Assembly: GCA_019448385.1 (NCBI GenBank)
Contig: JAGTXO010000023.1
Location: forward strand, 124,001 to 188,000
DNA length: 64,000 nt
Direction: 5' to 3'
DNA from: Diacronema lutheri
Taxonomy: Eukaryota > Haptophyta > Pavlovophyceae > Pavlovales > Pavlovaceae
Numbering within the stretch: position 1 is the first letter of the stretch; each line of letters opens with the position of its first letter. Of the stretch, positions 1,171 to 30,638 are shown piece after piece. The position numbers were made by a program, and so were the translations under genes. The notes under the pieces were generated by a model. It ran no database searches, had not been told where the DNA came from, and saw only the letters and a list, made by a program, of their open reading frames with translations.

Positions 1171-1297
1171 GACGATGCGCGGCGCCCGCGGAGGACTGGT
1201 CCGTTGGCGCGCAAACCGTGGGCGAAAGGGCGCGAAGCCAACGGCCGTCCGCGCACGTTCAAACGCGCGCATACGGGTGGCATCCTCCCACCTTCGG

Positions 1298-2163: not shown

Positions 2164-2262
2164 GCGCCTCAGAGCATGGCGCCCGCCCGCTCGAGCCGGA
2201 CCTCCGCGCAGCCGGACTCGCCCCGCCCCGGGCTGCTCTGGCTGGGCGACGTCGTGCGCGCC

Positions 2263-2660: not shown

Positions 2661-2737
2661 GACCGTTGGCCCAGCTTTTTTTTTTCTCGAACCTACTGTG
2701 GAGCCGCCTGCAGCGTGATCTCCCGCGCACAACGACC

Positions 2738-8064: not shown

Positions 8065-8095
<31 letters not shown>

Positions 8096-8312: not shown

Positions 8313-9090
8313 CTGGACGTCGAGCGTGTGCGCCTTGTCCGCACGTGTGCACTCACGTGCGTCTGCGGCGATCTGCCCGGCGTAGTAGTCCGCGCGCGCG
8401 GGAGCCGCGTCGGCAGTAGGAGCAGGATAACGTACTTGCGCCTGACGAGGACGGCGAGAAGTGCGGCTTTTCGCTCGGGGTCTACCATGCCGCCGAGGTT
8501 GGCGCTGGCGCGCGTGAGGCAGTCGGAGCGCGCTGGGCCCGGGTTGAAGGCCTCACCCCGGGGGACGGGAGGATTCAAGGCGCCGAGCCGCTGCGGGTGC
8601 GGCGGGAGGCCCCGGGCGGGTGTGCTAATGCGGCTCGATGGCCGCCTGCCGGGGGGGGGGGGGGGGGGGAGGGGGGGGGGGGGGGGGGCGTTGGGCCGCC
8701 CGCGGAAACGGAGGTGAGCGTGTGGGAGCGGCGCGCGTCGGCGCGCGCGGCTGGCGTGCAGCACGGATAAGTCTTGTGTGGACTTCGCGGGGCGGATCCC
8801 GGTGCAGGGATTGCCGACGTAGGCCGCGAGCGCGAGCAGGGCGGGGATGAAGACGGATGATGGGGTTGGGGCCAAGGCCGCCGCACCCGCAGCTATCACG
8901 GTGGCAGCGACCGCCACGGTCAGTGCGAGGCTCGCGTGGCCGCTGCGCGGGCAGCTCGCCCGCCAGGTCCAGGAGGGCCGGCCTGCGGCCTCAGTGCCCA
9001 GCGTTGGGCATGTCAGCGTCTGCGTCTGCGGGCCCGCCACTGCGATGGCGCATTGAGCCTGGCGCACCAAAACGCAATCGGTCCGCCGAT

Positions 9091-9128
<38 letters not shown>

Positions 9129-10960: not shown

Positions 10961-11037
10961 TCTCCAGGGCATCATGTAAATTCTCCCAAGTATCATCCGG
11001 GCCGCCATCCGGACACTGACGTGCCCACAGTCTGCAG

Positions 11038-14000
11038 ATGGAGGACTCCGTGAAGGACGCTTTGCCCGGCGGGCGGGGCGGCTCGGACAGTTTCTCGCTG
11101 GCCCTCAGCACCATTCTGTCGCCGGGAGATACCCACCCCCACGTGGTCCCATCCACTTGCCTCATCGCCCTGCTGCGTTACGCGGATTTCGGCACGAGCA
11201 GGGTTAGGGTGGGCGACACGGGGTGCTCGCAGCATGCGCTCAAGGTGGCGCTGCGCAACCTGCGCAAAGCATGCGCGGATGCGGACCGGTTTGGGCAGGT
11301 GCTCGTGGTCGTGCTACCGCTCTGCCTCCGCGCGTCCAGCGGCCTCGTGCACTGGACGGCGGCGTACCTGCTCCTCGCGCCGCCCGCGCAGCGCGGCGCG
11401 CCGCCCGGCGCCGCGCTCGCCCTGCTCGCCGATTCGCGCACCTTGGGCAACGGCGAATCGGCGTACGCCACGGCGGCCGGCGTGCTCATCAAGAAGCTTG
11501 CGCAGCGCATCGGCAGAACAGCGCCGCCCATCGATGCCTTCAAGGCGCCCCCGCAGAGTGGGGCCGCGTGTTGCTTCGCCGCGGCAACAGTCGCGGCCGA
11601 GGTCGTGGCGAGCGCATCGACGCTCTACGGCCGCCGCGCGAGTGTCCTTGTCGACATCAAGAAGGCTTTGGACGCGCGCCTCGCGCGCCTCACGACGGCC
11701 GCGTACGAGGAGACCCGCGCGCGCACGCTCCGCGCCGCCATCGGCGCTCTGCTCGGCGACCGCGCCAGGCGCTTCGGCCCGTTCACCCGCGAGGCCGCGC
11801 GGCTCGCCGAGGCCGCGCGGCTCGCCGAGGCGTGCGATGCCAGTGTCGGCGGATCCGCGCCCGACGGGCTGCTGCAGGCCGTCGAGGCGGCGCTGCGCGC
11901 GCCCGACGACCGCATCGCACGCACGGCCGCGCTCGACGCGCTCACGGGCGCTGCAGGCCGCGCGCTGTCGACGGCGGCCAGGCCGCGCGGCGCGGCGGCG
12001 CCAAGGCCGCCGTCGCGAGCGCCACCGCCGCGTGCGCCGCAGCGGCGCGCCGCCTCGGCGTGGGGGCCCCGACCATTCAGCAGCCTCGGCGGGGGCGAGG
12101 GCGACGGGGACGATGGCGACGCCACCACCGCTGACGACGGGGAGGGCGCGGAGGACGGGGACGACGACCCCGCGGGCGCGGCGGCTGCGGCGGTGGCGAC
12201 GGGCACGGCGGCGACGAGCGCGGTGGCGGCGGGCGCGGCGCCAACCTCGCCGGCGGCGGCGGACGGCGGTGGCTCGGCGCCGCTCGAACGCCGCTGCGTC
12301 TACACTGCGCCTGATGAGGGCGACGCGGACGCGCGCGTGTACGACGCCAAGGACCCCGAGCAGCTAAAAGCGGGCAGGGCGCGGCTACGGGCGAACAGCG
12401 GGCGCGCGCCCGCCGTGGTCGACACGCTTTTCGCGCACGCGACGGGCACGATCGTCACGCGGCAGCGCACGGAGGGCGTGACCGGCGCGGGCATGCACCA
12501 CCTCGCCGCCCCGACGCAGGGCGCGGGGTACGGTACCGTCGTGCGGGCCGAGCTGGGCGAGCCCGGCTTCGCGGGGACGACATGGCACATGACGTCGGGC
12601 GTGGAGAACCAGCCGCGCGCGGTACGAGCGGCCGCGCGCGCGTACGCGCACGACGGCTGGGGCGGCGTGTACAATGCGCACGAGGACTTTGCCGCCTTCG
12701 AGGGCTTGCCGCGGCTCGCCGCGCCCGAATCGCTCGCGGCCATCGCCGGCGGGTCGGCGGACGCGGTGTTCTGCTGGCGGTCCGGCCGGTCCGTCATCGG
12801 CGAGGTGACGACGGTTCACTTCAATGGCGACCGCGCCGCCGCCATCGACCACGCGCGGGCGCTGCGCGTCAGGCCCGATTGGCGCTCGCAGCCCAGGATC
12901 TACGAGGCGGCGTGCGGCGCGGAGGGCACGGTGCTGCTCGTGTGGGTCGTGCCCGACCGTCACAAGAACCCGCGGCTGGACTGGGCGCCGATTCTCGTCG
13001 TGATCCACCTGCCCGCCGACCCCGACTGGCTCGCGCGCGCCACGCCGGCGATCGCGAAGGCGCGGCGCGAGGTCGAGGACGGACGCGCGCGCGCGGAGGC
13101 GCGCGGCGTGCCGCAGCACCTCGCCTACACGCTGAGCCCACGCTTCCGAGGCACCGCGCCGCGCGGAGCCGCGCGCGTGCCGCCGCGCCTCGGCGCGAGC
13201 GACGCGCGCGAGGCGCGCGCGCTCGCGGCGCTCGAGCCGGCGCTCATGTTCGCGCCGGCCTGGCGGCGCGCGGTGCGCGCGGCGAGCCGCGCCCCCGGCA
13301 GTGGCGCCGCGGCCGTCGAGCGCGCGCTCGCGCGCCTGCACAACGCGCTCGAGCCCGATGACGAGAGCGCGCCCGAGTCGACGCGCGTCGCGCCGCTCGC
13401 CGCCGCGCTCGAGCAGTCGGCGGGCTGGCCGGCGGGCACGGCGCGCATGGCGGCAAGCGTGACCAAGGGCCCCGGCGTCGGAGATGGCGCAGGTGGCGAC
13501 GAAGTGACCAAAGTGGAGGAAACGGCGAAGACGAGCGGCGACGGCTGCACCGGCACGCCTCCTCTGCGCCCGGCCGCGCGCGCGGCCGGCGCGGCGGACG
13601 ACGGAGGGGCGGCGGTCGTGGCGGGCGTCGAGGGCGAGCGCGACGCACTCGCCAAGACGGGTGCCGGCGGCTGCGACGACGACGCTCGCGAGCCGCTGTC
13701 GGCCGGCAAGCCCGGCGCACTCGCCGCCGCGGCGACCGTCGGGGGTCTCGGCGAGCTCGTCGGCAGCCTATGCGCGTGGCTGGCGCGCGGCGCGGCTGGC
13801 GGCGCCATCGCGGCCATCTCCCCCGGGACGGCCGCGCGCGGAGCAAACGGCACGCCGCAGCGCGCCGAGCCGCCGGCCGCCGGCGATCCCGTCGCTCCGC
13901 ACGCGCGCGTCGCCGCTGCGGCGCCCTTGGCGGGCAGCGCGGCGGCGCCGTCGTCGGCCGCGCGCGACGCGCAGCGCGGCGTCGCGGGATTCGACGCGGC

Positions 14001-14712
14001 CGCGCACGCGCACGCGCGCGACGGCAGGCGGGCGGCACGGCGGATGCGCGAGCAGGAGGGGGCGGTGCACAGGGCCTTCCGCATGTCCCTCTGGCGCGAC
14101 GCGACGTTTGTCGAGTTCGTTGAGAAGCTGCGCCCCGACGGCGGCGCGCAGCTGCTCGCGCGCGAGCCCACGCGGCGCGCGGCGGCGGTGCTGTGCGAGC
14201 TCGCGCGCGGCCGCGACGGCGCGAGCGGCGCGGCCGGGCTGCTGCACGAGATGAGAGCCGCCGATGCGCGCGCGCGCGAGGCCGCCAAAGCGGCGGAGGC
14301 AGCGCAGCTTGCGCACGGGACGCTGCGCATCGTGGCAACCGTGGCGCTGGGCGGTGCGGTCTTCGCCGGCATGTCAGCGCTGGTCGTTGCTTGCGCGGCG
14401 CGCACGGCGACCGGTGCGCTTTTTGGGGCCCGCCGCCCGCGGGCGGCCGCGCGCGGAGCCGACGACGCGCTCGGCACGCTGCAGCGCGCCAAGCCGCCGC
14501 CCGCCGACAAGGGCAAGCGCAGGCGCGCCAGAGCCAACGACGACCCCGTCGACGCGGCGCGCAAGGCCGTGGGCAAGGCGGAGGGCAACTGCCGCAAGGC
14601 AGCCCGCCGGCTGCACCTCGCTGCACTGGGCGAGGAGGAGGCGCAGCAGCGCGTGCTCGACGCCGAGGCGGCGGAGCAGCTGGCGCGCTCGCGCGAGCCG
14701 GCCGGCGGCTGG
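11038..14712 (+). CDS. Giant element polyprotein, part 1: C48-type protease, unknown domain, membrane/coiled-coil segment
   Basis: ATG 11038 opens 1,225 codons without a stop. Residues about 100-190 form a C48/Ulp1-like cysteine protease core: His in LVHW (11350), Asp in LADSR (11431), then Gln-x-Gly-x-x-Cys in PQSGAACC (Gln 11554, Cys 11569). Such enzymes cleave SUMO-like tags or polyproteins. An alanine-rich linker follows, then a compact unknown domain (about 12,300-13,120) containing GTTWHMTSGVENQP and AVFCWRSGRSVIGEVTTVHF. Near the end are a helix-rich domain, one hydrophobic helix (IVATVALGGAVFAGMSALVV, about 14,330) and a coiled coil. The exon ends at a GTAGGC donor (14713). An acceptor at 14874-14875 joins in phase to the next block, continuing the same coiled coil. 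Confidence 0.6.
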
Positions 14713-14875
14713 GTAGGCAGCGCGCGCGCGCGCGCGCGCGCGCGCCCCGCCGCGCGCGCGCCCGTCGATTGGCGTGCGCGCAGCGCAGAACGGCGCGCCA
14801 GCTCCGTCACCTGCGCGCCGCCGCGCCCGTGCCCCTCGCGCGCAGGGGCGCCCTGCGGACCTGCGGCTGCAACAG

Positions 14876-17800
14876 GCGCACTTTGGCATGCGCGAAGATG
14901 CCGACGCGGATGTGCGCCGCGCGCACGAGGCGCTGCGCCGGGCGAGACAGGGTGTGGCGTGCGCCAAGGCCAGCGTGCGGCAGATGGAGGCGGCGTTGCT
15001 CAACGCGACGCGCTGCGCCACCGCGGTGCTCGCGCCGCGTGGCGTGCCGGAGGGTGACGAGCAGGCCGCGGCGAGAGAGCAGGCGGCGCTGGACCGGGAG
15101 GCGCCGCCGGCCGCGCAACGCGCGGCGCCGACGGCGCGCTCGCCCTCGGAGCCGCCGTCCGAGTGGGGCCCGCCAGCGGTCGGCCGGCGCCCGACGCCGC
15201 GTGCACTGTCGCACGCCGCGGGTCGCGGGGACGACAACCCGTTTGCGCCGCTCGCAACCGTCAGCGGCGATTGGTCGCCCACGCCGAGCTCGCGCTCGCC
15301 GTCCTCGCCGCCGCGGCAGCCGCCGTCCGACCGCCGCAGCGCGCAGCGTCGCAGCGCGCGCGCGCGGCCGCCGAGGCCGACCGTTTCGCCCGAGGACGCG
15401 CTCGCAGCCGAGCGCCAGGCGCGCGCGCTGTCGGAGCAGGCGGAGCAGAGGCGCGCCAAAAAGGCCGCCGCCAAGGCCGCGCGCCGCGCCGCGCGCGCCG
15501 CCGACAAGCGGACGGCGCGCGTCGTCCACGCGTGCGTAAGCGCCGCCTTGCGGCGCGTCTGCACGAGCGTCGCCACGGGCACGCCGCTCGCCGTGCTCCG
15601 CGAGCGCGCCGAGGGGCCGCGCGCGCCGAAGCCCGCGCCCGCGCCGCCACGCCGCGCAGCGGACGGCGGCCGCGCGCTCCGCCACGCGCGCCGTGCGGCC
15701 GCCGCGGCGGCGGAGCGCGAGGCGGCGGTGGCGGCCGACGCCGACGAGCGGTTCGAGCGGCAGCCCTCCGCCGCCCGGTTCGACGGCGGCGATGGCGGCG
15801 GAGGCGGCCACGTCGAGGCGAGCGCGCGACCGCGCGCCGGCGAGGCCGGCGAGGCTGGCGCGCACGGCGCGCCTGGCGCAGCGGGGACCCCGGCGGCGTC
15901 GCTCGCGTCGCGCAGCCCGTGTGATGCGCGCCGCACGGCACGCCTCCCGCACGCACGCGCCGCAGCCACCTGCGCACGCAACGGCGGCTGGGGTGGCAAC
16001 GTCGGCGGCGACGTGTGCGGCGGTTGTTTCGGCGGCGGCGGCGTCCGTCGCGACGCCTGCGGCGGCGGCGACGCCACCTGCGGCTGCGGCGATGGCGGCG
16101 TCGGTGCTGGCGCTGGCGAGGCCCCTGCACACGGTGCGCCGGCGCGCGCGACGGCGTCGCGCTTGCTGCGCTTGCTCGGCGCGCCACGCGCCGTGCTCGG
16201 TGCGATGGCGCACGCCGCGGCCGTGTTGGCGCGCGGCGTGGCCGCAGCCGTCGCTGGCGTGCGCGCCGCCGCGCGCGCCGTGCGGCGCGCGCGCCGCCGA
16301 GCGCCTCGCGCGCGCCGCACGGCTGCGCGGCGGGCTCGCGGCCCGCCGATGCGCGACGTCGACGGCGCCCTGCGGCCCTCGCCGTCCTGGTTGCGCACAC
16401 GCCTCGTCTGCGGCCGGCGCCTCGCGCCTCTGCGCCGCGCGGGCGCGCGCCCGCCGCCCGCACACGCCGCGCCGAGTTCCCGCGCGCGCGCTGCGCAACC
16501 CGACAGCGACGCGCCGGCGTGCGCGCCGCGGCGCTCGGCGCCTGTCGGTGCGCCGCCGCGCGCGCGTGGCCTGCGCGCGGCGCGCGCACGGCGCTTCCTC
16601 GACGTCGCCGGCCGCGCGGCGCGGAGCGCGCGCCTCGGCGCGCGCATCACGCGCCAGCGCACGCCGGGTTCGCCATCGGAGCCCTGCACGGCCGAGAGCG
16701 GCGACGGCGCGGGCGCCGGCGGCGTCGGCGCGGCGGCGCCTGGCGCGGCGACGATGCGCGCCACCGGCGCGCGCGCAGCGCGCGCTGCGGCGGCGGCGGT
16801 CGGTGGCGCCTCGCGTCTCGCGCGCCGCGCGATGGCAAGCGCCGCCGCCGCTGCCACCTCCATCGCCGGCGCTGCCGCCTCCACCGTCGCCGCCGCCGCC
16901 GTTGCCATCGGCGCGGCCGTCACGTCACCGGCGTTCGCCGCGGCGCGCGGCATGGCGGCCGCATGCGTCGCTGCCTGCGCCCGCCCCACCGCCGCGCAGG
17001 CGGCCGCGTCGCGCGCGCTCGGCGCGCTCTTCGTGCTCGTCGACGCGGCCGACGCGGCGGGCGACAGCGACGCCGCGCTCGGCGCGCTCGCGTCCGCGGT
17101 CGACGCGACGGAGCTGCGCCCGCCGCCGGCCTTTTGGCGCGCGGGCCGCGCCGCGGCGTACGCACCGCGTCCGCCGCCCCTCGACTCGGCGCGGCCGCGC
17201 TACAACCGGCGCGCGCGCGCACCTAGCCCTCCCGTCGCGGCCGCGCGGCGCAATCTCGCGCGCGCGGTGCGCGAGCTCACGCGCGCCGCGCGCGCTGAGC
17301 GCGAGCGCGCGCCGGCGCCGCGCGGCGCGCGCGGCGGCGTGCTCCACGCGCTGCGCGCGTCGCTCCCCGTGCACGCGCGTGCCGCGCTCGGCACGGACGC
17401 GGAGCTGCGCGCGGACATCGCCGCGTTCGCGCGCGCGCGCCGCGAGCTGCACAGCCTCACCGACGCCGAGGTGGCGGCGCTCGCGCGCCCGGACGGGCCG
17501 CCGCTGCCCGTGCGGCTCGCGTGCACGGCGGTCGCGCGCGCGCGCGGCGTGACCGTGCTGCTCGACATCGTGCCGCGCGGCGGCGGCGCGCCCGAGCGGC
17601 TCGTGTGCCGCGCCCGTCGCCGCGGCGCCGCCACGCGCACGCCACGGCCGACAGCCGCCGTTATCGCGCGCGCGCCTTGCATAGCGGCGCGCGTTGGCCA
17701 CACTGAGCCGGCGCGCGCGTGCGCGGGCGGATCGATCGGGGTCGCGCGCCTCCGTTCAGCGCGCCGCCGCTCTTGGCGTGGGGCGCGGCTCGACGTGCAC

Positions 17801-19282
17801 ACCCGCGAGCGGCTGGCCACACCGGTGCCAGGCCACGTCGTGGCCTGCGCCGCCGCCTCGGCCATCGGCGCGTGCGTCGCTCGCGCGCGGCTTGGGCTTG
17901 CACGGCTGGCGCGCGCGTGGCCCTGCGCCTCCGCTCCACTGGCCGCTGCTGCTGTCGCCTTCGCGCCTGCCGCCGACGGTGTTTTCTGCGCCCCGCTGGG
18001 CGCTCCTGCATCCGCCTTCGCGCCTGCCGCCGACGGTGTTTTCCCCGCCGCACTAGCCGCTGCTGCATCCGCCTTCGCGCCTGCCGCCGATTTTCCCGCC
18101 CCACTAGTTGCTCCTGCATTCGCCTCCGCGCCTGCCACCGACGGCGTTTTCCCCGCCCCACTAGCCGCTGCCGCTGCCGCGTCCGCGCCTGCCGCCGCGG
18201 GCGCGTCTTCCGCCCCACCAGCCATCGCCGCCGCGCCCGCCGCCAACGCGCGCACCGCCAACGTGCCCGTTGCCAACGAGGCTACCGCCACCGAACCAGC
18301 CGCCCTTGAGCTTCCCCTCCAACCCGCCAACTCGGCGCTGCTTGCGTGGGCGGGCGACGCGGCTGCGCGCCGGCTGGCCGCCGCCGCCGCGAGCGCCGGC
18401 CTCCCGCAGGCAGAGGTGGAGCGCATCGCCAGCGGCGACATGCTCGCCTCAACCGTCGACGCGTGCTGCGAGGTCGTGCTGCGCGTGCACGGGCAGGCCG
18501 GCGGCGGGCATGTCTGCCACGTGCCGCTCGCCGCGCAACCCGCGGTGTTTCAGGACGACGCCGAGCGCGCCGCGCTGCTGCACCGCCTGCGCAGCGAGGC
18601 GACAACGCAGGCTGTCATCGGCGTGTGGAGCCCGTCGGACGAGCGCGGCGGCGCGGGCGGTGACGACGGCGCGCAGCTCGCCTCCGGCCATTTCACCGCG
18701 TTGCGCCTTGTGCGCGTCGCGCGCGCGGGCGAGCATCGCTACGACGCGGTGCTCGTCGACACGCTCGCGTCGCCCTGCAGGCAGGCGCTCATGCTCGCCA
18801 AGGCGATAACTGCCACGCTGCACGCGGCGGGTCTCGACATTTCGCGCGTGCGCCGCGCGCTGCTGCTCAACGAGGCGGCGCAGCGTGGCGCGACGTGCGG
18901 CCTCGCGATAGTGGGCGCGCTCAACGACGCGCTCGCCGCGGCGGGCTGCTCGTCCGCGCCGCGCACGTTCAGCGTGGCGGACATGTACGCTGTCGGCGAG
19001 CGCCTCCGCGTCGCGCTGACCGGCGCGGCCAGCGATCGTGCGCCGGGCGGCGTCTGCGCGGTCACGAGCGCGGTGCGTGGCGGGGGCAGCCCCGATCGCG
19101 CCGAAACGCCGCCGCAGACGCGCGGCGCCAAGGCCGCCGCTGGCGTCACCGCCGCCGCCACCGCCGCCGCCACGCCGCCGCCGCCCGCGCTGGGCGCCGC
19201 CGCCGCCGCCACCGCCGCCGCCGCCGCTGCTGCCGCCGCCGTGGCCGCGCCGCCACCGCCGCCACCGCCGCCGCCGGCCGGC

Positions 19283-19356
<74 letters not shown>

Positions 19357-19660
19357 GCGCACGTTCTTGAAGCTCGCGCCCAGGGCGCGCGCGGCCGCCT
19401 CGGCGCGTGAGGCGTTGCGCGCCGCGTGTGCGCGCGCGGACGCGGCGGCGTCGTCACACGCGTCGGCGCCGCACGCGCCCGCCGGTGCGCGCCGCCGGCG
19501 GCGCGCGGGCGCAGGCGAGCTGGCGCTCGCGGCTGCGCGCGCGCTCGCCTCGACGGAGCACGGCGATTTGACGGACGACGCGCTCGAGGCCGCCGTCGAG
19601 CAGGAGCTGGGCGACGAGCGCGGCCAACTGCTGCTGTGCACGCGGGGCGCAGGGCGCAGC
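14876..19660 (+). CDS. Giant element polyprotein, part 2: second C48-type protease
   Basis: The block starts AHFGMREDADADV after a 163-nt intron and continues a coiled coil to about 15,600. A long low-complexity alanine/arginine region follows, with some hydrophobic helices (about 16,800-17,000). Residues encoded at about 18,320-19,020 form a second C48-type protease: His in ASGHF (18689), Asp in LVDTL (18758), Gln in EAAQRGATCG (18881) and Cys (18896), with the same Gln-x-Gly-x-x-Cys spacing as the first. Both proteases keep complete catalytic sets, so self-processing of the polyprotein or removal of a host SUMO-like tag is possible; this is inference. A poly-alanine (GCC)n run follows. The frame changes between 19,630 and 19,680 with no convincing intron. 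Confidence 0.55.
17940..18215 (+). repeat. Imperfect tandem repeat of about 60 bp, five copies, inside the ORF
   Basis: Units encode variants of FAPAADGVFPAPLAAAAS. Copies differ by small in-frame changes, and one lacks the GVF codons. The repeat lies just before the second C48-type protease and probably encodes a flexible linker. Confidence 0.6.
19281..19357 (+). repeat. GCC trinucleotide repeat encoding poly-alanine
   Basis: An almost pure run of GCC codons encodes more than 20 consecutive alanines between the second protease and a basic segment. Length variation between individuals is likely for such a tract. Confidence 0.7.
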
Positions 19661-21330
19661 GGCGCAAAGGCCCGCGCTTTGCCGGCTCCTGAAGCACGCG
19701 TGCGCGTCGGCGCGCGCGGCGAAGCGCGCGCAATTCACGGTATTCGTCGTGCGCGCGGCCACGCGCGGCGAGCGGGGGGGCGCCGCCGCGAGGCGCGTGG
19801 ACTCGGTGGTCGAGCTGTCGTGCGCGCTGCACGAGAAGGCGGGCGCGCTCGGCGGCCTCCAGAGCGTCTGTGTGCGTGGCTTTGCCCTCGAGCGCCGCCG
19901 GACACTCGACGCTGGCGCCGAGGCCGGCGCGTCCGCCATCGGCCAGGACGAGCAGGTCGAGGCAGAGGCGGGCGAGGCGTGCGTCGCCGGCGTGACGATG
20001 GCCAAGCAGCTGCGTCAGTTTGCCGAGCAAGCTGCCCGCGACGACGTGCTCTTCCACGTCGCCGTGTCCGAGGCCGACGCCCACGCCCGGCTGGCGCGCG
20101 TTGCGGGTGACGATGTCGGCGCGTACAGCGTCGTGCTCGCAGTCGCCGGGCTCGTCTGGCTGGCCAAGGCCGACGAGGTTGCGCCGGCGGCCGCCCAGTC
20201 CGCCGCCGTGCCGCCCGCCGCCCCGCCTGCTGCCGCCACGTCCGCCGACGCCGAGCGCGACGCCTCGCCTTCCGACCGCCTGCGCGCGCTGACGCTCGCC
20301 GTGCGAGTCGCGCTCGCGCGCGGCGTGCTGCGCCACCTCCTCGCCGACGCGTCGCCGGGCGCGTCCGCGACCGCTGGCGGTAGTTGCGCGACGCCCGTCG
20401 AGGCGGCCGCGTCCGACGCCGCGCCGCCCGCCACGGGCGTCGTGACGAGTGGCGTTGCGGCGGGCGCTGTGGCGGCCGCACCGGCTGCTGCGGGCGGTGC
20501 GATGGCGGGTGCATCGCCCATCGCGCGGCCGGCGAAGCGCGCGCGGCGCACGCTCACCGCCGCTCCAGCCGCCTCGGCCGTTGCGGCCGCTGGAGGCGCA
20601 CGCGCGGGCGCACGCGGCGCGGCCGGCGCGCCTCGCGCGCGCGCCGCGCGCGCGCCGGCCGAGTACGTCTGGCTTGCCATCGCGCGCCGGATGCTGGCGG
20701 CGCGACACGCGGCGGCCGCGGGCGGCGACTTTGTCGCGTCGTGCGTCGCCGCGATGCAGGCCGAGTACGGCGACGGCTGTGCCGTCGTCGTCGGCGACGC
20801 GCCTGGTGACGCCTTGGTCGAGGCTGCGGCGGCGGCGCTGCTCGAGGGCAAGCACGCGGCGGTGAGCCTCGGCTGCGTCGACCGGCCGGCGGTGCTCGTC
20901 GTGCAGCGCGCCGTGGACGCGCCCACGTCGCGCGTGCACGGGTGGTGCGCGCACGCGGCGGGCGCCGCCGAGTTTGACGAGGGCGCCGCGCGCGACGTGT
21001 TCAACGCGATCGTCGAGCGCGCGTGGGCGCTGCGTCCGGACCCGGCCGACGGCAGCCCGCCGCCCACGCGCACGTGGGAGGTCGAGCAAATCGCTGACGA
21101 CGCGCCCGACCAGGCGGGCGTGGCCGCGCTGCGCGTGCTCTACGCGCTCGTCGCGGCGCACGGCCGCTACCGCTCGGCCGCCGCGCTCTTTGGCGCGATC
21201 GCGCAGCTGCACGCGCCCGACGCCGCCGGCGCGCGCGCGGAGGTCGTCGCGGCGGCGTGCGCGGTGCCGCCCGGCGCGCGGCCGGGCGCCGCGCCGGCGG
21301 CCGCGCGGGACGACGCGAGGGAGCGCGCAT
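19650..21330 (+). CDS. Giant element polyprotein, part 3: possible XPG-I-like segment and unknown domain
   Basis: After a one-base frame change the reading continues QFTVFVVRAATRGER and a helix-rich stretch. VTMAKQLRQFAEQAARDD plus VAVSEADAHARLARVAG (about 19,995-20,105) resembles the helical approach and the E-A-D motif of FEN1/XPG-type I-domains. The next acidic cluster expected in that family (EDSD) is not visible, so the resemblance is weak and the site may be dead. A second unknown domain (about 20,660-21,180) includes AEYVWLAIARRMLAARH and VVVGDAPGDALVEAAA. The frame changes again near 21,330. Confidence 0.4.
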
Positions 21331-23263
21331 GGGAAGCGCTCAGATCGCCGCGCTCGCCGTCGGCGCGGACGCTGCGCGCAGGCGTGTCGCGCCCGTGCGC
21401 GCGCTCGTCGACGCGCTCGGCACGCCGCCGACCTCGGCGATCACGGGCGGGCCGGCGGTGCGGCTCGCGGGCGCGGGCGACGGCGGCCACGGTGCACGGT
21501 GGGTGGGCGGGCAGGCGGCGACGCCCGCCGAGCAGCTGCCGAGGGAGCTGCTGCGCGCCTACCACGAGGCGGTGCTGTGCGTCACGCCCGGCAGCCTCCA
21601 GCTCGGCCCGGCGGCGCTCGACGCGGTCACGCGGCCGCGCGAAAACGACACGCTGGAAGGCCTCCTCGCGCGCGTCAGCTGGCAGTGCGGCGCGAGGGCG
21701 AGCACGTGCGCCATGCTCGCCACGTTTTCCGAGCAGGCGGGCACCGGCTCGCGCGTCGCGCTCAAGGCCCTCCGCACGAGCTCCGACCTGGCCGGGCTGA
21801 CGGCGGCTGCGGTCGGGCAGCAGGCGCCGCAGACGCCGCCGCCGCCGCTGCTCGTGATGCTCGGCCGCTGCCCCAGCCCGCTCGTCGGCGGTGGCCTCTT
21901 CCCGCCCGACCGCGCGACGGGCGAGCCGGCGGTGCACGCGGCGACGTCCGAGCTCGCCGTCGAGCTGCTGCGCGACGCGCGCGCGCTGGCCGGCACGGAC
22001 GGGCGGCTCGTCGTGCTGTGCCTCGAGGCGTCCAACCCGCTCTGGTTCTGCCCCAAGGTGCGCGAGCTCGAGCTGCCGCGGACGCGGTCGGACGGCGTGC
22101 GCGCGTCCGGCTGCACCTGCCCTGCGACGTGCAGCGATGCGCGCGGCGCGGCGGGTGGCGCTGCCCGCGGCGCATCGACGCGGCCGGCGGCGCGCGCGAT
22201 CAACAAGGCGGTGCTCGACCACTTCGTCGCGCTTTTCGGCCGCGAGGGCTTCGCGACCTTTGAGTTTGCGGGCGGCGGCGAGGCGAGCTGGCTGTGCGAC
22301 AGCGCGGCCGGCACGACGACCGTCGCGGCGTGCGCGTCGCTGCCGCCGCGCATGGGCGATGGGCAGCTGGCCATCCGGCGGCACACGCTCGGCACGGGCG
22401 CCGACGCGCCGGCGCACGCCGTCGTCTCGCTCCGCGTCGCGCACGTGAGCCACGCCATCCGCCGCGCGGCGGACGACGGCGGCGCGCGCGCCGAGCGGAT
22501 GGCGCGCGCCGCGCGCGCGTTTTGCGATGTGGCGGCCGCGCTGCGCGTCGACGCGATCCTGGCGGAGGTGCCCGAGGACCGCCCGACGGGCACGCCCTTC
22601 CTTGGCGGGCTGCTCAAATGTTGGGACAAAGACCACGGGAGCTCGACGGCGCCAGCCACGCTCGCGCTCGGAGACGTGCGCGAGGTGGCCAAGCGGACGG
22701 CCGACGCAGCGGCCGGCCGAGCGGACGAGGTCCCTGCGGCTGGCCGTCCGCAGGTCGCGGCGCGCGCGTGCGCTGGCGCGATTGGCGGCGGCGCGGGCGC
22801 GGCGGGCGCCTCGGACGCTGCGCCGCGTGCACTGGCGGGCGCGTCGGGTGCGCGCACGGACGGCGGCCCTGCCGACGCACCGCGCCAGCTGGAGAGCCGC
22901 TACGGCGAGGCGAGCAAGCTCGACCTACCCCAAGATTCCACTACGGGCCGCGTCCTCGACGCTCGCGAGGCCCAGGACCGCGCGCGCGTGCCTGCTGCGC
23001 CCGACGGCACAGCGCTGCGCCGCGTGCTCGACGCCGTCGGCGCGGGCGCGCCCGCGCAGCGCAGCCCGCGCTGGCACGACGAGCGATGGGAGGAGGTCAC
23101 GGGCAGCAAGGTTGGCGACGTCGTGAACGACAACGCCGGCGTCGCGCACGAGACGCTCACCGACGAGTACGTGCACCGGCGGCGGCGCGAGGTGCGGACC
23201 AAGGCGACGACCGCGGGCATCCTCGGCGAGGCCGTCGCGCTGCGCAAGCTGGCGGCCGCGTAA
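21329..23263 (+). CDS. Giant element polyprotein, part 4: unknown domain and first half of a YqaJ-type nuclease
   Basis: ATG 21329 (MGSAQIAALAVGADAARRR) could be a real start or simply the point where the frame shifts by one. Several hundred residues of unknown domain follow, with LLVMLGRCPSPLVGGGLF and FEFAGGGEASWLCDS. From about 23,060 the sequence becomes the N-terminal half of a YqaJ/lambda-exonuclease-like fold: SPRWHDERWEEVTGSKVGD, then GILGEAVALRKLA with the conserved helix Glu at 23228. A TAA at 23261-23263 stops it in mid-domain; the same frame continues on the other side. Confidence 0.5.
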   Translation: MGSAQIAALAVGADAARRRVAPVRALVDALGTPPTSAITGGPAVRLAGAGDGGHGARWVGGQAATPAEQLPRELLRAYHEAVLCVTPGSLQLGPAALDAVTRPRENDTLEGLLARVSWQCGARASTCAMLATFSEQAGTGSRVALKALRTSSDLAGLTAAAVGQQAPQTPPPPLLVMLGRCPSPLVGGGLFPPDRATGEPAVHAATSELAVELLRDARALAGTDGRLVVLCLEASNPLWFCPKVRELELPRTRSDGVRASGCTCPATCSDARGAAGGAARGASTRPAARAINKAVLDHFVALFGREGFATFEFAGGGEASWLCDSAAGTTTVAACASLPPRMGDGQLAIRRHTLGTGADAPAHAVVSLRVAHVSHAIRRAADDGGARAERMARAARAFCDVAAALRVDAILAEVPEDRPTGTPFLGGLLKCWDKDHGSSTAPATLALGDVREVAKRTADAAAGRADEVPAAGRPQVAARACAGAIGGGAGAAGASDAAPRALAGASGARTDGGPADAPRQLESRYGEASKLDLPQDSTTGRVLDAREAQDRARVPAAPDGTALRRVLDAVGAGAPAQRSPRWHDERWEEVTGSKVGDVVNDNAGVAHETLTDEYVHRRRREVRTKATTAGILGEAVALRKLAAA

Positions 23264-23640
23264 GGCATCACCGTCGTGTGCAACCTGCCGATGGTGCGTG
23301 CGGACCCGCACGACAAGAGCGCGCCGTTCGCCTTCTCGCCGGACGGGCTCGCCATCCTCCCCGAAAACAACGAGCAGGTCCTCGTCGAGGTGAAGACGCT
23401 CACCAAGGCGGGCGCCACGGCGCACGAGGACGGGCCGCCGCAGCCGCACCGCGATCAGCTGCAGCTCGGCATGCACGTCCTCGGCGTGAGCAAAGCGCTC
23501 TACGTGCAGTACCTCAGGCACGAGGACCGGATCGTCGTGCACGTCGTGACGCGCGGCGCCGGCTGGCTTGCATTCGCGCAGCCGAGGGTGCAGGCCTTCT
23601 GGGCGCGCGTCGTCGAGCGGCGCGCGCGGCTCGAGCGCGC
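23060..23640 (+). other. Domain: YqaJ-like PD-(D/E)XK nuclease, split by TAA
   Basis: The helix Glu (GILGEAV, 23228), the Asp of FSPDGLA (23342), the Glu and Lys of VEVKTL (23387 and 23393) and the QLQLGMHVLGV helix match the catalytic layout of YqaJ/lambda-exonuclease nucleases, which resect DNA in viral and phage recombination. The TAA at 23261 separates the first Glu from the rest. The domain supplies a DNA-end-processing activity next to an RNA-guided nuclease. Confidence 0.65.
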
Positions 23641-26600
23641 GCGCGCCGACCACCCGGCTGCGAGCCGGCGGCACCGGCGGCAGCAGACGCCGGCCGGGCC
23701 GCCGCTCGTGCTCGCGCTGGACGGGCGCATCCCCGCCGCGCGCGCCGCCGCGCTGCACGCCGTCGCGCACGGCACCGCGAGCGCGGCGGCGGTGACGGCG
23801 GCGGCGGCGACGGGCGACGCGACGGCGTTGCAAGACGCGATCGCGGCGCTGCGCGCGCCCGTCGGCAATGCGGCGATCGACAGCGCAGCGCGTGCGGAGC
23901 GCGCGGCCGTCGAGCGGGCGATCGCGTACCTCGGGCAGCCGGCAGGCGACGCCGCCGCCCGCGGCACGGCCGAGGCGGCCGAGGAGGAGAGGACGGTCGA
24001 CGCCGACATCTGCGCGTTGCTGCACCAGCTCGGCGCGAGCGTGGCGCACGTGCACGTCGAGGACGCGGATTGCGTCACGCGTGAGCACTGGGGCGGGGCG
24101 GTGCTCGCTGCAGCGGGCGACCCGTCGAGCGCCCCCGCCATTTCGAGCGTCATCGTCGCGCACATCGTGCGCCTCGCCGGCTTTGGCGTCGAGCTCCCGC
24201 AGTCGATTCGCGTCGCCCCCAGCACGGCCGACTGGCACGAGGGCTGGCTCGACGTGCAGTGCGTGCTGCTGCGCACGCGCCGGCGCGGGCGGCGCGACGA
24301 CGACTTTGTGGCCGTCGTCAGGCGCGGTGGGCGCTGGTTTGCGTGCGAGCCCGGCCGCGCGCGGCGGCTGCAGTGGCGGTCGGTCCTGCGCCGCGCGCGC
24401 GGCGGCGTCGACGGGACCGGCGAGGAGGCGTTCGCGGTCGTCTACGTGCGGCGCGGCGACGCGGCCGGCGACGCGGCTGGCGACGCGCAGGCCGAACGGG
24501 CGCGCGGCGGGCGCGCGCGCAGGCGCACGCGCGGCGGCACGCGCAAGCGCAAGCGCGGCGCCTCCGCCGGGCTCGAGGCGGCCGCGCCCGCCGGCGCGCC
24601 GGCGGGCGCTGCTCACCGCCCGCCCGCCAGGCGTGCCACGGTCGCCGCGCGCACCACGCGCTCTGTGACCGACGCGCGGCACTCGGCGCCTGCCGCCACG
24701 GTTGCACCTGTCTTCGACTGGCGCGCCGGCCGCCCGCCCCCTGCCGCCGCCGCCGCCGCCAAGCGCGGCCAGGCGCTCGAGCCGGGGCAGTTCGCGCGGC
24801 CGCGTGGGCGCGCGCCATGGGGCAAGGTCTGGGACAGAGTCTCGGGTGCGTGGGCGGACAAGCCGACTGGTGCTGCCGTCGCCGCCGCGCCGCCGCCGCT
24901 GCCGCCCGCCGCCGCGCCGCCGCCCGCCGCCGCGCCGCCGCCCACCGCCGCGCCGCCGCCCGCCGCCGCGCCGCCGCCCGCCGTCGCGCCGCCGCCCGCC
25001 GCCGCGCCGCCGCCGCCGCCGCCACCGGCGGCGCTCGGCCGCCGGCAGCACGTCGGCGCGGGCGGCAGCGCGGCGGGCCGGCGGCTCGCGGCCATCGCAC
25101 GGCGGCAGCGCGGCGTGCGCGCGCCGCCGCCCGCCGCGCGCTTCCTCGCCACGCTGCCGCCACCGCCACGCGACGGCCTCGCGCGCACGAGCAAGCAGGC
25201 GCGCGCGAGGCGCAACGCGGACGGACGGCCGGCGCACGCGCGCGCGGCCAACGCGCGCGCCTTCTACCGCGGCGTGGAGCTCGGCGTGCACGCGACGCGC
25301 GCCATCGTCGACGCGCGCCACGCCGACCTGCCGCAGGCCGTCTTCGTGGCGGAGGCGCGGGCGATCGTCGCGCGCTCCGCCGGCGGCGGCGCGCTGCTCG
25401 CGCCGGACGACGTGCGCGACCTGTGCGACGCGCAGACGGACGCCGATCGCGCTGCGATCTGGGCGTCGGTGGGCGCGCACGAGGCGACGCGCATCTTCGC
25501 GCTCGTCACGCGCAACGCGAGCTTGGCGGGCGCGGCGCTGCTCGTGCTGCACACGCCGGCGGGCGCGCCGGCGCGCGCGCTCGGGCTCGTGGCGACGCGC
25601 TCGCGCGCGCCGTCGACGGGCGCGCCGCGCGACGCGCACAGGGCGCTGGTGCAGCGGTTGGACGTGCTGATGGACGCGATCGCCGCGGCGCGAGGCGCGT
25701 CGCCGCTCGAGCTCGAGCTCGCGCTCGCGCCCGAGCCGCAGAGCGCGTGCAACGCGCGTGCGGCCGCGCTGCTCTGCCTGCAGGCCGTCGCGGACGCGAG
25801 CGGCCGTCCCGCCGCTGAGGACGCGCTGGCCGCGCTCGACGACGCGCGCGGCATCGACCGGCACTGCCACGCCGTCCGGCAGCAGATCGAGGCGAAGCTC
25901 GCGTGGCGGCGCGCCGACGGCGCCGTCGGCGTTGACGGCGCCGACGGCGCGCCCGCGCTCGCGCCTGCCGCCGCACCGCCGGCGTGCGCGCCGGCGCACG
26001 CTGCCGGCGAGGCGGCGGTCGACCAGGCGATCGTCACGCGGGTGCGCGACGCGCTGCGCGCGTGGGCGACGACTGGCACCGCGCCCAGCGCGGCGGTGCT
26101 CGACGACGCCTGCGCCGCGTACACGGCCCGCGCACGCGCGCGCAAGGACGCGCGCACGGCGCTGGGCCCGACGCGCGCGGCCGAGCTGCTCGCCGCGGCC
26201 GCGCGCGGCGGAGCCGACGGGGCGGATGCCGCGCGCGCGCTGCTCGGCGGCACGCCGCGCCTGCTCGTCGTGCTCCTCTGCGTGCCCGTCGCCGCGCCGT
26301 CCGGCGAGCCGCCGCGCCCGGTCGGGCTGCTCGTCGCCGACCGGCCGACGGACGACTCGCGCCCGGCCGCGCTCGTGCGCTACGACTTTGCGCCGCTCGA
26401 CGCGGACGTGGCCGTCGCGGTCGGCGCGCATGCCGTCGCGCTGGCCAGTGCGATCTGGCCGCTGCTCGCGGCCGAGGGGGAGCCGCGGCCATCGCCCGTC
26501 GTGCGCTCGCAGCCGCGCGGCGGCGACGATGGCGCGCGTGCGCTCGCAACGTTCGCGTGCCTCGACGCGCTGATGACCGCCAGCGTCGGCGCGCACGGCC

Positions 26601-29600
26601 TCGCGGGCGGCGCGGGCATGCTGCCCGCGCTGGTCGCGCGAGGCGCCGCGGCCGCCCAGCGCGAGCGGCAGCTGCGCGCGGCCGCCGAGAGGCTGGGCGG
26701 CACGGTCGCTGGGTGGCCGGACACGGGCGCGAGCGCGGCGGGCGCGAGCGTCGACGAGGAGGCGCGCACGTACGAGGTCGAGGCGGTCGTCGACGAGCGC
26801 CGCAAGGCGGGCAAGAAGGTGACGTTCCAGTTCCGGATCAGGTGGCGGGGCTACGACGAGAGCGCCGACACGTGGGAGCCTGAGGCCAACGTGAGCAGCG
26901 ACCTCGTCGCCCAGTTCCGCAAGACGCGCGACGAGCAGAAGCGGCGCGCGGGCGTATCGGGCAGCGGCAGCGGCGGCGCGGGCGCGGCGTCGGCATTGGC
27001 GTCGGCGCCGCTTCGCGCGCACGGCGAGTCGGGCGCCGCGGGCAAGCGCGCCGCGGCGGGTGCCGCCGCGAGCGCGCGCGACGCCGCGGGCGCGCGCGCG
27101 CCGAGCGTTCCCCGCGCGCGCGGCGTCGAGCGCGCGCGCGTGGACGAGCCCGCTGCGCCGAGCGCGCGCGCCGCCGGCGGCGCGACGGCGCGCACGCGCG
27201 TCAGCGTGCTCCCGGGCTTCGTGGTCAAGCGCTCGACGCTCAACGCGGGGCCGCAAACGGTGACGGCGCAGCCCGGTGCGCGGAAGGAGCTGCGGCGCAT
27301 CGCGGCGGCCGTGCACAGGCTCACGACACAGGCGTACCGCGTCATCAACAAGGTGGTGCGCGACGAGGCTGCGGTGGCGAGCGCGCAGGCCGTCGGCGCG
27401 GCGTCGGGCGGCCCGTCGACCAGCGTGCACACGTCGACCACGATGGACAAGGGAACCGTCCGTGCGATCTTCTCGGCCATCGGCTGGCACAAGGACGAGA
27501 GCACGTACGGTGCAGCGCCCCGAGGCAAGCCCGCCGAGCAAGCCGCCGCGCAGACCAAGGCGGCGACGGCGCGCGCCGTCGGCGAGATGGCCGAGGGCGT
27601 CCAGCCCGTCTGCGCGGTGGGCCTCACGGAGATCCTCGAGGCGGAGGCGACGCAGGTGTCCACCGCGTGCCTGATGCATCCATCGCGCGTCGTGAACGGG
27701 CTGCTCCGCGACGTCGTCCGCGCGGCAGTCGAGCGCGACGAGGCGCTCGTCGCGCTGCCCGAGATGCAGCGAAACGCGCGCGTGCGCGAGCTGTGCGAGC
27801 GGCTGCTGCGCGGCGACGTGGAGGGCGCGCGCGTCGGCTGCCCCGCCGCGCTCGACCGCCACCTGCCCGACATGGTCCTCCACAAGATCGACTACAAGTG
27901 CACGCCCACGAAAAGGTGGAACTACGACCGGCACACGACGCGCTACTTCCTCGTGCAGATCCGCACCCTGCAGCACGTGGCCGAGGGGCAGGCGCTGCTC
28001 TGCCGGCTCGCGCACATCCACACGCAGCTGACCGGACGGCCGCCGCGGTACAATGTGGCGCCGCTGCGCACGCACAATGTGCGCGCGAGGCGCGGCTGCC
28101 GCTGCCGCCGCCGAGCGCCCAAGCGCGCGCGCCGCCGCCGTGCGCGCCGCCCCGCGGCCAGGTTGGTCACGCGCCCGCGCGCTCGCGCGCCGCGCGCTGC
28201 GCGCAGGTGCCGCGCAACGTGCGCCTCGCCGCGAGCGCCATCTGGGTGACGCTTTCGGATGACGAGCGCAAGGAGCTGCGCGCGCGGCTCAAGGCGCTGG
28301 ACCTGCGCGACCACGATGGCGAGCCGATCAAGTGGACAGGCACAAACGGCAACACCCCGCCGATGTCGGACGTGCGCGTCAGGTACGCGGTCTTTGCGAC
28401 GCGCTTCGACATCTCCAACCGCGTCTTCGACTACGCCGGGCGCGAGCGGCCGCCGGCCGATCTGCCGTGGCACGCGCGGCGCTCGTGGGTTGGCCTCGCG
28501 CCGCTGCCGCGCGTGCCGCTCCCGGGCCGGCAGCCCGTCAAGTCGGTGGTGACAGATGGCGTCGCCGTGCACGCCGTCGGGACCGTCCTCGTGCCGAAGG
28601 CGCAGGCGCCGGCCGGCGGCTCGGGCGTCCTGCACCGCTGGCGCCGGCCGGACGGGCGCATCGCCGTCGCGCTCGGCTCCGAGCTGCGGCGGGCGATCGA
28701 CGTCGAGGCGGCGGTCGTCGTCGCGGCCGACCCGAACATGGGCAACATCACCACCTACTCTGCGCACGTCGGGCGGGCGGCCGTCTGGCGGCAGTTCACG
28801 CAGCGCGCGCGCGCGCGCGCCGCGGGCTTTGCGCGCGAGACGGCCAAGACCAACGCGGCGCGGCGGCGCGTGCGCAAGGACGGGCGCGGCGAGGAGTTCA
28901 GCGTGGAGGCGGACGAGGCGCGGCTTGGCGAGGCGCACAGCGCCAAGGTGCTCGGCGAGGGCGAGTTCCACGCCTTCCACCGCGAGAGCGCGCGGGTGCG
29001 CGAGCGCGCCGCCGAGCACGTGTACGACGCGCCGGCGCGCCGGAAGGAGCGCTGGCGGCGCGACAGCGGCGGGCGGTCCAACGCGGCGCGCGTCGCCGAG
29101 GCGCTCATCGCGGCGCACTGTGTCGACGGCGTGACGCGCGACCGGCTGCTCGTGTGCGTGGGCAAGTGGCTGCGCGACCACAAGGGCGCGCAGCCCAAGG
29201 GCGCGCCGCCCGCCTTCCAGGTGGGGCTGCTGCGCGAGCTGCGGCGGCGCGGCGTCGCGGCCGTCTTCGTGCCCGAGCCGTACACGTCGATGCACTGCTC
29301 GATGCCGCGGCTCGCCAAGGGCGGCAGGCTGCAGCGCTGCGGCGCGGAGCTCGCGCAGAACCCGCGCCTGCCCGTGGCAAAGGGCGGCACGCGCACGGTG
29401 CACGCGCTCGTCATCTGCCCGGCGTGCAACGGCGGCAAGAAGCCCGTGCACCGCGACTACAACGCCGCGCGCAACATCTTCTACGACGTGCACGACATGG
29501 CGGCGCACGCGGCCGGGCGCGACACCACGTCGACGCCTGAGCGCTTTGCCCTCGTGCTCGCCTGGTGGGCGCGCGGCGAGGTGTGGGAGCGTGAGGAGCG

Positions 29601-29711
29601 CATGGTGCACGGCGAGGGCGACGACTGCGACGACGAGTGCGACGGCGACGACGAGGGCGACGACGAGGGCGACGACGACGACGACGACGATGGCAGCGGC
29701 GACGGCGGCGG

Positions 29712-29744
<33 letters not shown>

Positions 29745-29931
29745 AGGCGGCGGCGGCGACGACGACGATGACGGCGGGGGAGGCGGCGGCGGCGACGGCG
29801 GTGGCGACGACGGCGGCGGGCGCGGCGGCGGTGGCGGCGGCGGCTCTCGCGCCCGCACCCCCGCCCGCGGAGCTGCCAGCGCCAGTGCCGGCGGCGGCAG
29901 CGCGCGCGGGCCGAAGCGCGGCCGGCGTTGA
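23264..29931 (+). CDS. Giant element polyprotein, part 5: YqaJ nuclease, chromodomain and Fanzor
   Basis: The reading continues in the same frame after the TAA and is open to an intron at 28079-28206 (GTGCGC donor, GCGCAG acceptor, phase 0), then to TGA 29929. In order: the second half of the YqaJ-type PD-(D/E)XK nuclease (to about 23,640); a long region with a basic KRKR patch near 24,550 and a proline/alanine repeat; unknown helical domains; a chromodomain (26,768-26,930); and a Fanzor nuclease (about 27,200-29,600) with an Asp/Gly-rich tail ending in basic PKRGRR. No separate start for the Fanzor is obvious, so it is either the C-terminal unit of a polyprotein or is made from an internal start. 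The lack of stops across about 6.5 kb apart from the intron suggests selection was recent. Confidence 0.7.
24892..25035 (+). repeat. Pro/Ala 18-bp tandem repeat inside the ORF
   Basis: Units encode PPPAAA or close variants (PPPTAA, PPPAVA), about seven in a row, ending in a longer proline run. It probably forms a rigid linker between the YqaJ-containing region and the central domains. Confidence 0.65.
26768..26930 (+). other. Domain: chromodomain
   Basis: The segment reads TYEVEAVVDERR, then FRIRWRGYDESADTWEPEANV and a helix LVAQFRKTRDEQ. This is the canonical three-strand plus helix chromodomain. The aromatic-cage positions (Tyr of YEVE, Trp of RWRGY, Tyr of RGY) are all kept, so binding to a methyl-lysine histone tail is plausible. 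Chromodomains steer some retrotransposon integrases to silent chromatin. Here it precedes a Fanzor by about 270 residues. Confidence 0.85.
27200..29931 (+). other. Domain: Fanzor RNA-guided nuclease (TnpB/IS605 OrfB homologue), apparently intact
   Basis: The N-terminal part (SVLPGFVVKRSTLNAG onward, then PDMVLHKIDYKCTPTK) leads through the intron to SVVTDGVAVHAVGTVLVP, the wedge-type segment. RuvC-I is VVVAADPNMGNITTYS with Asp at 28729. RuvC-II is VFVPEPYTSMHCS with Glu at 29275. A Cys-rich zinc ribbon follows (MHC, QRCG, then CPAC). RuvC-III is VHRDYNAARNI with Asp at 29455. Fanzors are eukaryotic RNA-guided DNA endonucleases found in transposons and large DNA viruses. All three acidic residues and the TS-x-x-C signature are present, so activity is plausible. 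The guide (omega) RNA is expected to overlap or follow the 3' end, but I cannot delimit it by eye. Confidence 0.9.
29600..29880 (+). repeat. GAC/GGC repeat encoding the Asp/Gly tail of the Fanzor
   Basis: GAC and GGC codons alternate for about 80 residues (runs such as DGDGDGDGDGGGGGDDDDD). The tail follows the RuvC-III motif by about 40 codons and ends in a basic, possibly nuclear-localising end. It is unlikely to be catalytic. Confidence 0.6.
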
Positions 29932-30638
29932 CGCACGGCCGAGCCGCGCAGCGGTCGACGCTTTGCGGGCTCTGCCCAGGTCGCGCGCGGCTGGCGACGC
30001 GTGCCGCGCGCGGCACGACCGTGCACGCCGCCACCCGTGGCCGAGCGCGCCGCACCAGCCGGCCCGCTCCAACCGCCGTGCGGATCACGGACGCTCGCTA
30101 CGGCTCGTCGGCGCGCGTCACCTGCGCCGGCGGCCACGGCGCCGTCTGCTCCGGCCTCGTCGCGAGCAGCCCGACCGCTGCTCGCCGCCCGCACGCCGCC
30201 GCAGCAACGCTGCGCGTCGTGCTCCCCCGCTCGCCAAACGCGAAGAGCTCCCTCACAAGGACGTCCTTCCGAACGGCCCGCGCTGCACTCGGGGCGCGAT
30301 CGTGCCCCTGATCGGATTTGGCTTGACCATCTATACTGAGTGTATTTGCTAACGACACTTTCATTTCTGCGATGGGCGGGAACTTGGCCTTGGGGCAACG
30401 AACGTAGTGAGCGGCAGAGAGCGCGCAGCGCACGTCCGCAGGCAGAGCGCTAACCCTGTGCACGCCGGGACGACAGGAGCGGCAAGGACGCGGCATGACG
30501 CGGTAGGGGTGGACACCCCCACGCACCTACCCCTCACCGCGATCCGACCGCCGTCGCTGCGCCGGCGGCAAGCGCCGTCCACAACGCCGCAGGCTTCCAT
30601 GTCAAGCCGACGCGCCCGGCGCGCACGGTGCGTCGGCG
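29932..30638. other. No gene seen; region just downstream of the Fanzor
   Basis: No protein-like frame is evident. An A+T-richer patch at about 30,310-30,400 (TATACTGAGTGTATTTGC) breaks the GC-rich background and could mark the end of the transcript or of the element. If this Fanzor behaves like others, its guide RNA and the right element end would be in or near this stretch. I found no matching inverted terminus near 11,000 by eye. Confidence 0.4.

Follow-up and report, generated by a model that had tools for sequence, protein, structure and literature searches.

Among the described systems closest to the one reported here is SpuFz1, a Fanzor1 of Spizellomyces punctatus, whose active site is reported to consist of D383, N385, E541, and D606 and whose target-adjacent motif (TAM) is CATA (PMC10432273). 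In OMEGA systems of this kind, the guide RNA comes from the end of the element, and the guide corresponds to the 3' flank, with the TAM on the 5' side of the target (PMC10432273). The element that carries SpuFz1, SPu-1, is ~2.1 kb long with 33-bp terminal inverted repeats (TIRs) and putative TA target site duplications (PMC3627910). The Helitron2 elements CRe-1, CRe-2, and CRe-3 of Chlamydomonas are without the usual TIRs, have hairpins near their ends, insert at a fixed tetranucleotide (after TTTT), carry a Fanzor with introns, and are most likely non-autonomous, and the MCi-2 elements of Mucor have a common Fanzor side but a variable 5' side (PMC3627910). A Fanzor gene was analyzed in a 64,000-nucleotide stretch of Diacronema lutheri DNA (positions 124,001 to 188,000 of contig JAGTXO010000023.1, assembly GCA_019448385.1), referred to as the window. 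A transposon of ~31.0 kb, referred to as the element, has this gene at its 3' end. The best explanation, which we consider probable, is that the gene is the Fanzor module of this transposon, fused to a chromodomain and serving RNA-guided homing at CTATA.

The window Fanzor resembles SpuFz1 in its RuvC Asp, Glu, and Asp, its zinc ribbon, and the Asn two positions after the first Asp, and an AT-rich target motif is common to both, the TAM of SpuFz1 being CATA and the one predicted for the window Fanzor CTATA. Unlike SPu-1, the element is 31 kb long, has no TIRs that could be seen at its ends, and encodes a chromodomain and a nuclease domain in frame with Fanzor. It shares with CRe-1/2/3 the lack of usual TIRs, the hairpins near the ends, the fixed tetranucleotide target, and an intron-containing Fanzor in an alga, but it inserts at CTATA and has a helicase, and Pfam (E up to 1) detected no Rep in the plus-strand frames of 1-29198 or the minus-strand frames of 1-9998. 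The PIF1-type helicase is a feature shared with Helraiser, from which the element differs in that no Rep/HUH was found in the same frames. As with MCi-2, related elements are common on one side and different on the other; here, two Fanzors share a 5' terminus. The features concerned are listed below in window coordinates.

1..30335, plus strand: portion of the element within the window; copies share exact ends, and the 5' end is at G000:C40:123302 (window -699)
23054..23515, plus strand: lambda-exonuclease/YqaJ-like nuclease domain (TIGR03033 and PF09588, on the sister copy L013)
26771..26923, plus strand: chromodomain (PF00385, 47.1 and 49.3 bits, cut-off 25.1), in the frame of the Fanzor N-terminal exon
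27200..28078, plus strand: Fanzor N-terminal exon (exon 1), left edge set by eye, without a profile match
28079..28206, plus strand: phase-0 intron, GT..AG, 128 nt (junction in P0006)
28207..29931, plus strand: Fanzor C-terminal exon (exon 2) with RuvC, TNB zinc ribbon, and an acidic/Gly-rich tail (PF07282, relatives P0002-P0005)
29932..30335, plus strand: 3' non-coding tail between the gene and the element end, candidate omega-RNA scaffold

A first-pass annotation, made from the sequence alone, had called a Fanzor nuclease in an algal-type nuclear genome, and both parts of the call were borne out: the contig is from a haptophyte, and, judged by its sequence, the window gene is a real Fanzor with a complete catalytic residue set. 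A single plus-strand frame, open over 26884-29931, holds Asp 28729 (DPNMGN), Glu 29275 (EPYTSMHC), and Asp 29455 (RDYNAARN); the Cys codons of the zinc ribbon are at 29296, 29338, 29416, and 29425. Pfam PF07282 (TNB) scored 28.4 bits on exon 2 and 27.3 bits on the 1015-amino acid frame, above its cut-off of 26.3 bits. The published Fanzor motif, D-X(125,275)-[TS][TS]-X2-C4-X(5,50)-RD (PMC3627910), is present with spacings of 184 and 8, and a pattern form of it, in which the ribbon spacings were the analyst's choice, had one match in the six frames of the 64 kb window, at this gene. In the 20 other copies of the element that were aligned (L009-L028), the residue strings around the three acidic positions were unchanged throughout, and all five motif strings were unchanged in 19. 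The window Fanzor matched the second Fanzor of the genome (described below) by profile with an E of 5e-9 over 114 columns. With the prokaryotic TnpB model NCBIfam guided_TnpB, the score was 14.5 bits against a cut-off of 100, and a PDB sequence search with the window protein returned no Fanzor structure and a weak match to Cas12f1 (E 0.074). As befits a Fanzor, the gene is eukaryotic and lies in a mobile element (a D. lutheri contig and a repeat with fixed ends). Fanzor1 and Fanzor2 are clades by phylogeny, and Fanzor2 occurs in IS607-type elements. Among the frames scanned with Pfam, none held a serine recombinase family, which leans toward Fanzor1 over Fanzor2.

Five proteins matched exon 2 of the window Fanzor (8000 candidates scored, from a collection of 5.8 billion proteins), of which one was 99% identical and four (P0002-P0005) were 39-47% identical, with P0004 and P0005 being fragments that stop before the ribbon. 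At the RuvC-I position, three of these four have DPG and one DTG, against DPN in the window. The first-pass annotation had considered DPN uncommon; although the relatives differ, DPN is not strange for a Fanzor, since SpuFz1 also has Asn at the equivalent position. Exon 2 starts with [MV]PR in 4/4 of the more distant relatives. Two near-identical proteins from other records might be transcripts, namely P0001 (an ENA contig of 2435 bases) and P0011 (EukProt Pavlova lutheri, covering window 21713-22987); a PDB sequence search with P0011 gave nothing informative.

The phase-0 intron of the first-pass annotation was placed at 28079-28206, where the annotated D. lutheri protein P0006 reads RTHN joined to VPRN exactly across the junction and the start of exon 2 is kept in the relatives. 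The intron stretch had no indel in 18/20 copies and a 2-base insertion in the other two, so the exon frames on either side stay different. P0006 itself is a chimera at another locus (C69), in which a part of Fanzor spanning the intron position is joined to three SAM domains; it is either a piece of the transposon that became exonic or an erroneous gene model. The gene start proposed at 27200 was not upheld because the open frame runs further upstream through the chromodomain. From 26618 to 27443, the frame contains no ATG that would separate the chromodomain from the Fanzor N-terminus. Unless the start comes from a hidden exon, the N-terminal part of Fanzor must therefore belong to one protein with the chromodomain. 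In most copies examined, the open frame of the chromodomain and Fanzor also includes the nuclease, further upstream. The contrast in GC between codon positions that marks a coding frame extends from ~21300 to 28080, the low-complexity stretch at ~24600-25200 excepted. A copy of the 21.5 kb class has the long frame open over at least 2464 codons (the next longest plus-strand frame listed there has 578), and in 18/20 other copies (all but L011 and L020), no stop interrupts it between the boundary of the retrieved piece, which lies at window 22309 to 23111, and the splice donor. The strings for the nuclease, chromodomain, and Fanzor N-terminal domains were all unchanged in 17/20 other copies, and exon 2 was complete by a string test in 18/20. 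The nuclease of L013 aligned over the full length of two profiles but scored under their cut-offs, TIGR03033 with an E of 1.6e-6 and 28.3 bits (positions 3-151 of 153) and PF09588 with an E of 0.002 and 18.8 bits; a PDB sequence search with the nuclease gave nothing informative. Fanzor is probably fused to the chromodomain, and the frame and the missing start codon suggest that translation most likely yields a larger chromodomain protein with Fanzor as its C-terminal part. A literature search covering part of what is in print found nothing describing this element or a chromodomain-Fanzor fusion, and no match for Fanzor with Diacronema; the available portion of PMC6338049 holds nothing on a chromodomain with Fanzor.

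Contig 40 of the assembly (43.49 Mb in 103 contigs) contains the window. Searching the genome with pieces of the window gave a repeated unit from window -699 to 30335 (~31.03 kb), the 5' terminus of which was mapped on copy L029. Allowing at most one mismatch, the 3' end pattern was found 227 times and the 5' end pattern 202 times, with 0 matches for the reversed controls. Pairing, which drew on 100 of the 227 3' ends and 92 of the 202 5' ends, resulted in at least 67 end pairs: 30 fall into the bin of 31.0 kb, 12 have a length of 21.5 kb, 9 of 29-29.5 kb, and 7 of 26-27 kb, and 9 are scattered. These paired copies sum to 1.88 Mb; scaled to 227 ends, the element would by extrapolation occupy ~4 Mb, perhaps a tenth of the genome. 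On the 3' side, the 20 other copies were 97.3-99.9% identical to the window copy, indels included (19 aligned over 7-8 kb and one over 5.3 kb), with 17 at 98.4-99.9% and three at 97.3-97.8%. Recent spread of the transposon through D. lutheri is part of the best explanation. The assembly paper gives 43.5 Mb, 103 contigs, 73.25% GC, and 22.9% repeats, the annotated ones being chiefly long terminal repeat and long interspersed nuclear elements (PMC8379373); the word stem "transpos" was not found in its main text, and the passages available do not mention the family.

The 5' flank was TATATA[C/G] in 22/24 loci with the exact end word, the exceptions being one second-family copy and one nested partial copy, and the 3' flank was TATAC in 23/25 loci, one of the other two reading TAACG and one being shifted by a base; a few flanks are common to several loci, and not all of these counts are independent. 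In the part of the window outside the element, 67,320 strand positions contain TATA only 6 times, and because it is rare there, the target is specific. The insertion target is (C)TATA(C). One TATA is touched by both ends, and a 4-bp duplication and insertion after CTATA without duplication look alike. When an empty site was sought using one repeated right flank, the element was present in 3/3 places, and no empty site was seen. At the copy L056/L066 (C9:2907808-2938837), ~12 bp of the same sequence is found on both flanks (gcgaggactata), resembling the variable duplications reported for Helitron2 Fanzor elements (PMC3627910). Inverted repeats lie close to both element ends; on the 3' side, there is a near-palindrome at 30291-30308, and the element closes with TATA at 30332-30335. 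The 3' tail had no Rfam match.

A second Fanzor family, very different from the window family and with DPG, was found at C9:376600-396400 (L074/L075) and C85:58700-78500 (L076/L077), the two loci being 97-98% identical over ~7 kb. Thirteen TNB matches in the genome have the exact score of this family, 43.9 bits, and two of them were compared. No chromodomain was found in this family by Pfam, and the match to the SpuFz1 structure by sequence had an E of 0.18. The upstream end of the C85 locus has 26 bases identical to the 5' terminus of the 31 kb element (in a control of 3000 pairs of random 60-base pieces, the longest shared word was 17). At the C9 locus, the 5' terminal word is absent, and two blocks of the element's 5' region, of 224 and 1405 bp, are present upstream at 97% identity. 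Both loci end beside TATA, ~0.65 kb past the Fanzor stop.

The first-pass annotation described the gene as intact-looking and did not recognize the 31 kb transposon, its copy number, the in-frame chromodomain and nuclease, or the second Fanzor family. Intactness holds for the Fanzor exons, which are open; further upstream, however, the long frame of the window copy is broken by three lesions.

19645..19652, plus strand: 7-bp insertion shifting the long frame, not in 10/10 other 31-kb copies nor in the 21.5-kb copy
21335..21336, plus strand: 1-bp deletion shifting the long frame, not in 10/10 other 31-kb copies nor in the 21.5-kb copy
23261..23263, plus strand: in-frame TAA inside the nuclease domain, TAC in 19/19 other loci with the exact flanking word (not found in L011 and L017)

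The frame changes near 19645 and 21335 are due to the two indels. Signs of purifying selection, as far as the substitution patterns can suggest it, are modest: of the three divergent copies, two had a higher synonymous share of differences in exon 2 than expected (0.32 and 0.50 vs 0.18 and 0.21), and in the Ulp1-like segment listed below, it was 0.45 vs 0.24 expected, with 33/67 differences from the 21.5 kb class copy at third positions.

The other genes recognized in the element are the following.

2738..4767, plus strand: PIF1-type helicase gene with two or more frames or exons (PF05970, 53.3 and 84.2 bits; Pif1_2B, 46.4 bits)
6869..7135, plus strand: ubiquitin-hydrolase (UCH) like segment (PF00443, 33.5 bits, cut-off 23.9)
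18227..18916, plus strand: Ulp1-like cysteine protease, by eye (H..D..Q..C order)

The best PDB sequence match of the helicase exon was the Helitron transposase Helraiser (7lcc, E 8.4e-7), and the N-terminal part of the helicase protein was without a match. The Ulp1-like segment had no Pfam match and no PDB match under E 0.15. Further Ulp1-like, PD-(D/E)XK, and XPG-like resemblances in the element were seen by eye alone. Pfam scans of the plus-strand frames of 1-29198 and the minus-strand frames of 1-9998 (E up to 1) recovered no transposase, recombinase, or Rep family. The element has a Helitron-type helicase, an inverted repeat near the 3' end, and no TIR, as Helitrons do; a canonical Helitron was rejected, as neither Rep/HUH nor Helitron_like_N was found in those frames. 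The only Helitron_like_N match in a search of the genome (G000:C63:35738-36019) is a candidate for a true Helitron outside the element. A virus or provirus was rejected as well, none of the Pfam scans made having shown a family for capsid, polymerase, or packaging functions; 18 pattern matches in IMG/VR were obtained, and none was confirmed as a relative by tblastn. In L079/L080 (C4:1055300-1069800), of the 21.5 kb class, ~2.4 kb of unrelated sequence takes the place of window 8068-18318. Window 1295-2163 is an imperfect palindrome of ~870 bp, 88-91% identical to its own reverse complement. Contig edges lie within a few bases of the element 3' end at the starts of C1, C5, C6, C10, and C12 and at the ends of C3, C8, C13, C15, and C32; these are probably assembly breaks at repeats.

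The most likely role of the Fanzor, by analogy with the described systems, would be to cut empty CTATA sites under RNA guidance and so to favor keeping the element. The tail at ~29932-30335 would be transcribed as an omega-RNA scaffold that reads out into host DNA, with the guide beginning at the base after TATA (30336 here), so that each insertion would yield a guide for its own flank. The ribonucleoprotein would cleave the matching unoccupied site beside a CTATA-type TAM, and repair off the occupied copy would bring the element back. The chromodomain may direct Fanzor to methylated-histone chromatin, and the exonuclease and helicase may ready the ends for strand exchange. The data show the element, its ends and their counts, the target, the domains, and the open frame; the omega-RNA, TAM, cleavage, homing, and chromatin targeting are what we infer. 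The element could go further and be a self-contained homing machine, in which one very large protein of Fanzor, lambda-type exonuclease, and chromodomain, together with a Helitron-like helicase, copies 31 kb into broken CTATA sites by recombination; we rate this as doubtful.

Several results weigh against RNA-guided homing by a chromodomain-Fanzor protein. Structure prediction, the check proposed by the first-pass annotation, was run on exon 2 with five sequences and had low confidence (mean predicted local distance difference test 50.2, predicted template modelling score 0.31), speaking neither for nor against the Fanzor call. Folding of the 3' tail was no better than that of shuffles (z -1.0 and -0.9). 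The nuclease scores are under the curated cut-offs of 68 bits (TIGR03033) and 22 bits (PF09588), the ATGs at 26573 and 26618 could begin a chromodomain-Fanzor protein without the nuclease, an unseen upstream exon might provide a Fanzor start codon, and relatives with the same order of chromodomain and Fanzor were not found. The differences in exon 1 (26702-28079), the helicase, and the UCH segment look neutral, the third divergent copy had 0 synonymous changes of 2 in exon 2, and of the exon 2 changes common to at least three of the 20 copies, 4 were synonymous and 12 were not.

The neutral look of exon 1 would also suit an ordinary passenger, that is, a stand-alone Fanzor captured by a large transposon, with the chromodomain and nuclease as separate proteins and no role in spread. 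Capture of Fanzor1 by several transposon types is on record (PMC3627910), and long open frames prove little alone, since the DNA is GC-rich and the opposite strand also has an open frame of 1787 codons in the region. The lack of an in-frame ATG from the chromodomain to the Fanzor N-terminal exon, the codon-position GC contrast of one frame, and the persistence of the open frame in 18/20 other copies are set against it, and we regard a passenger as unlikely. Transfer by a rolling circle or single strand, in the style of Helitron2 or IS200/IS605, with end hairpins, insertion after TATA without duplication, and a Fanzor that helps to retain the donor copy, is compatible with the homing explanation and is a possibility that we entertain tentatively. 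It is favored by Helraiser being the best solved match of the helicase exon, by ends without TIRs that both abut TATA with no longer duplication in most copies, and by the inverted repeats near both ends, while the missing Rep/HUH, the location of the single Helitron_like_N match outside the element, and the common TATA, which a 4-bp duplication explains equally well, argue the other way. That the window copy or the whole family is a dead remnant with a recently inactivated Fanzor appears very unlikely: there are the three lesions upstream of Fanzor in the window copy, and among the 20 others, exon 2 is incomplete by the string test in two and exon 1 interrupted in two, but the three lesions are absent in the other copies examined, the copies are highly similar, and the catalytic and motif strings are kept in all or nearly all of them.

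The question of what Fanzors do for the transposons that host them can be approached here with about two hundred insertions of one family in a culturable alga. Each copy gives a specific prediction of TAM and guide, and two very different Fanzors are linked to one kind of terminus and one target. By extrapolation, perhaps a tenth of a genome that has been called streamlined would be one family. The chromodomain-Fanzor fusion, if true, would offer a model from nature for addressing an RNA-guided nuclease to chromatin.

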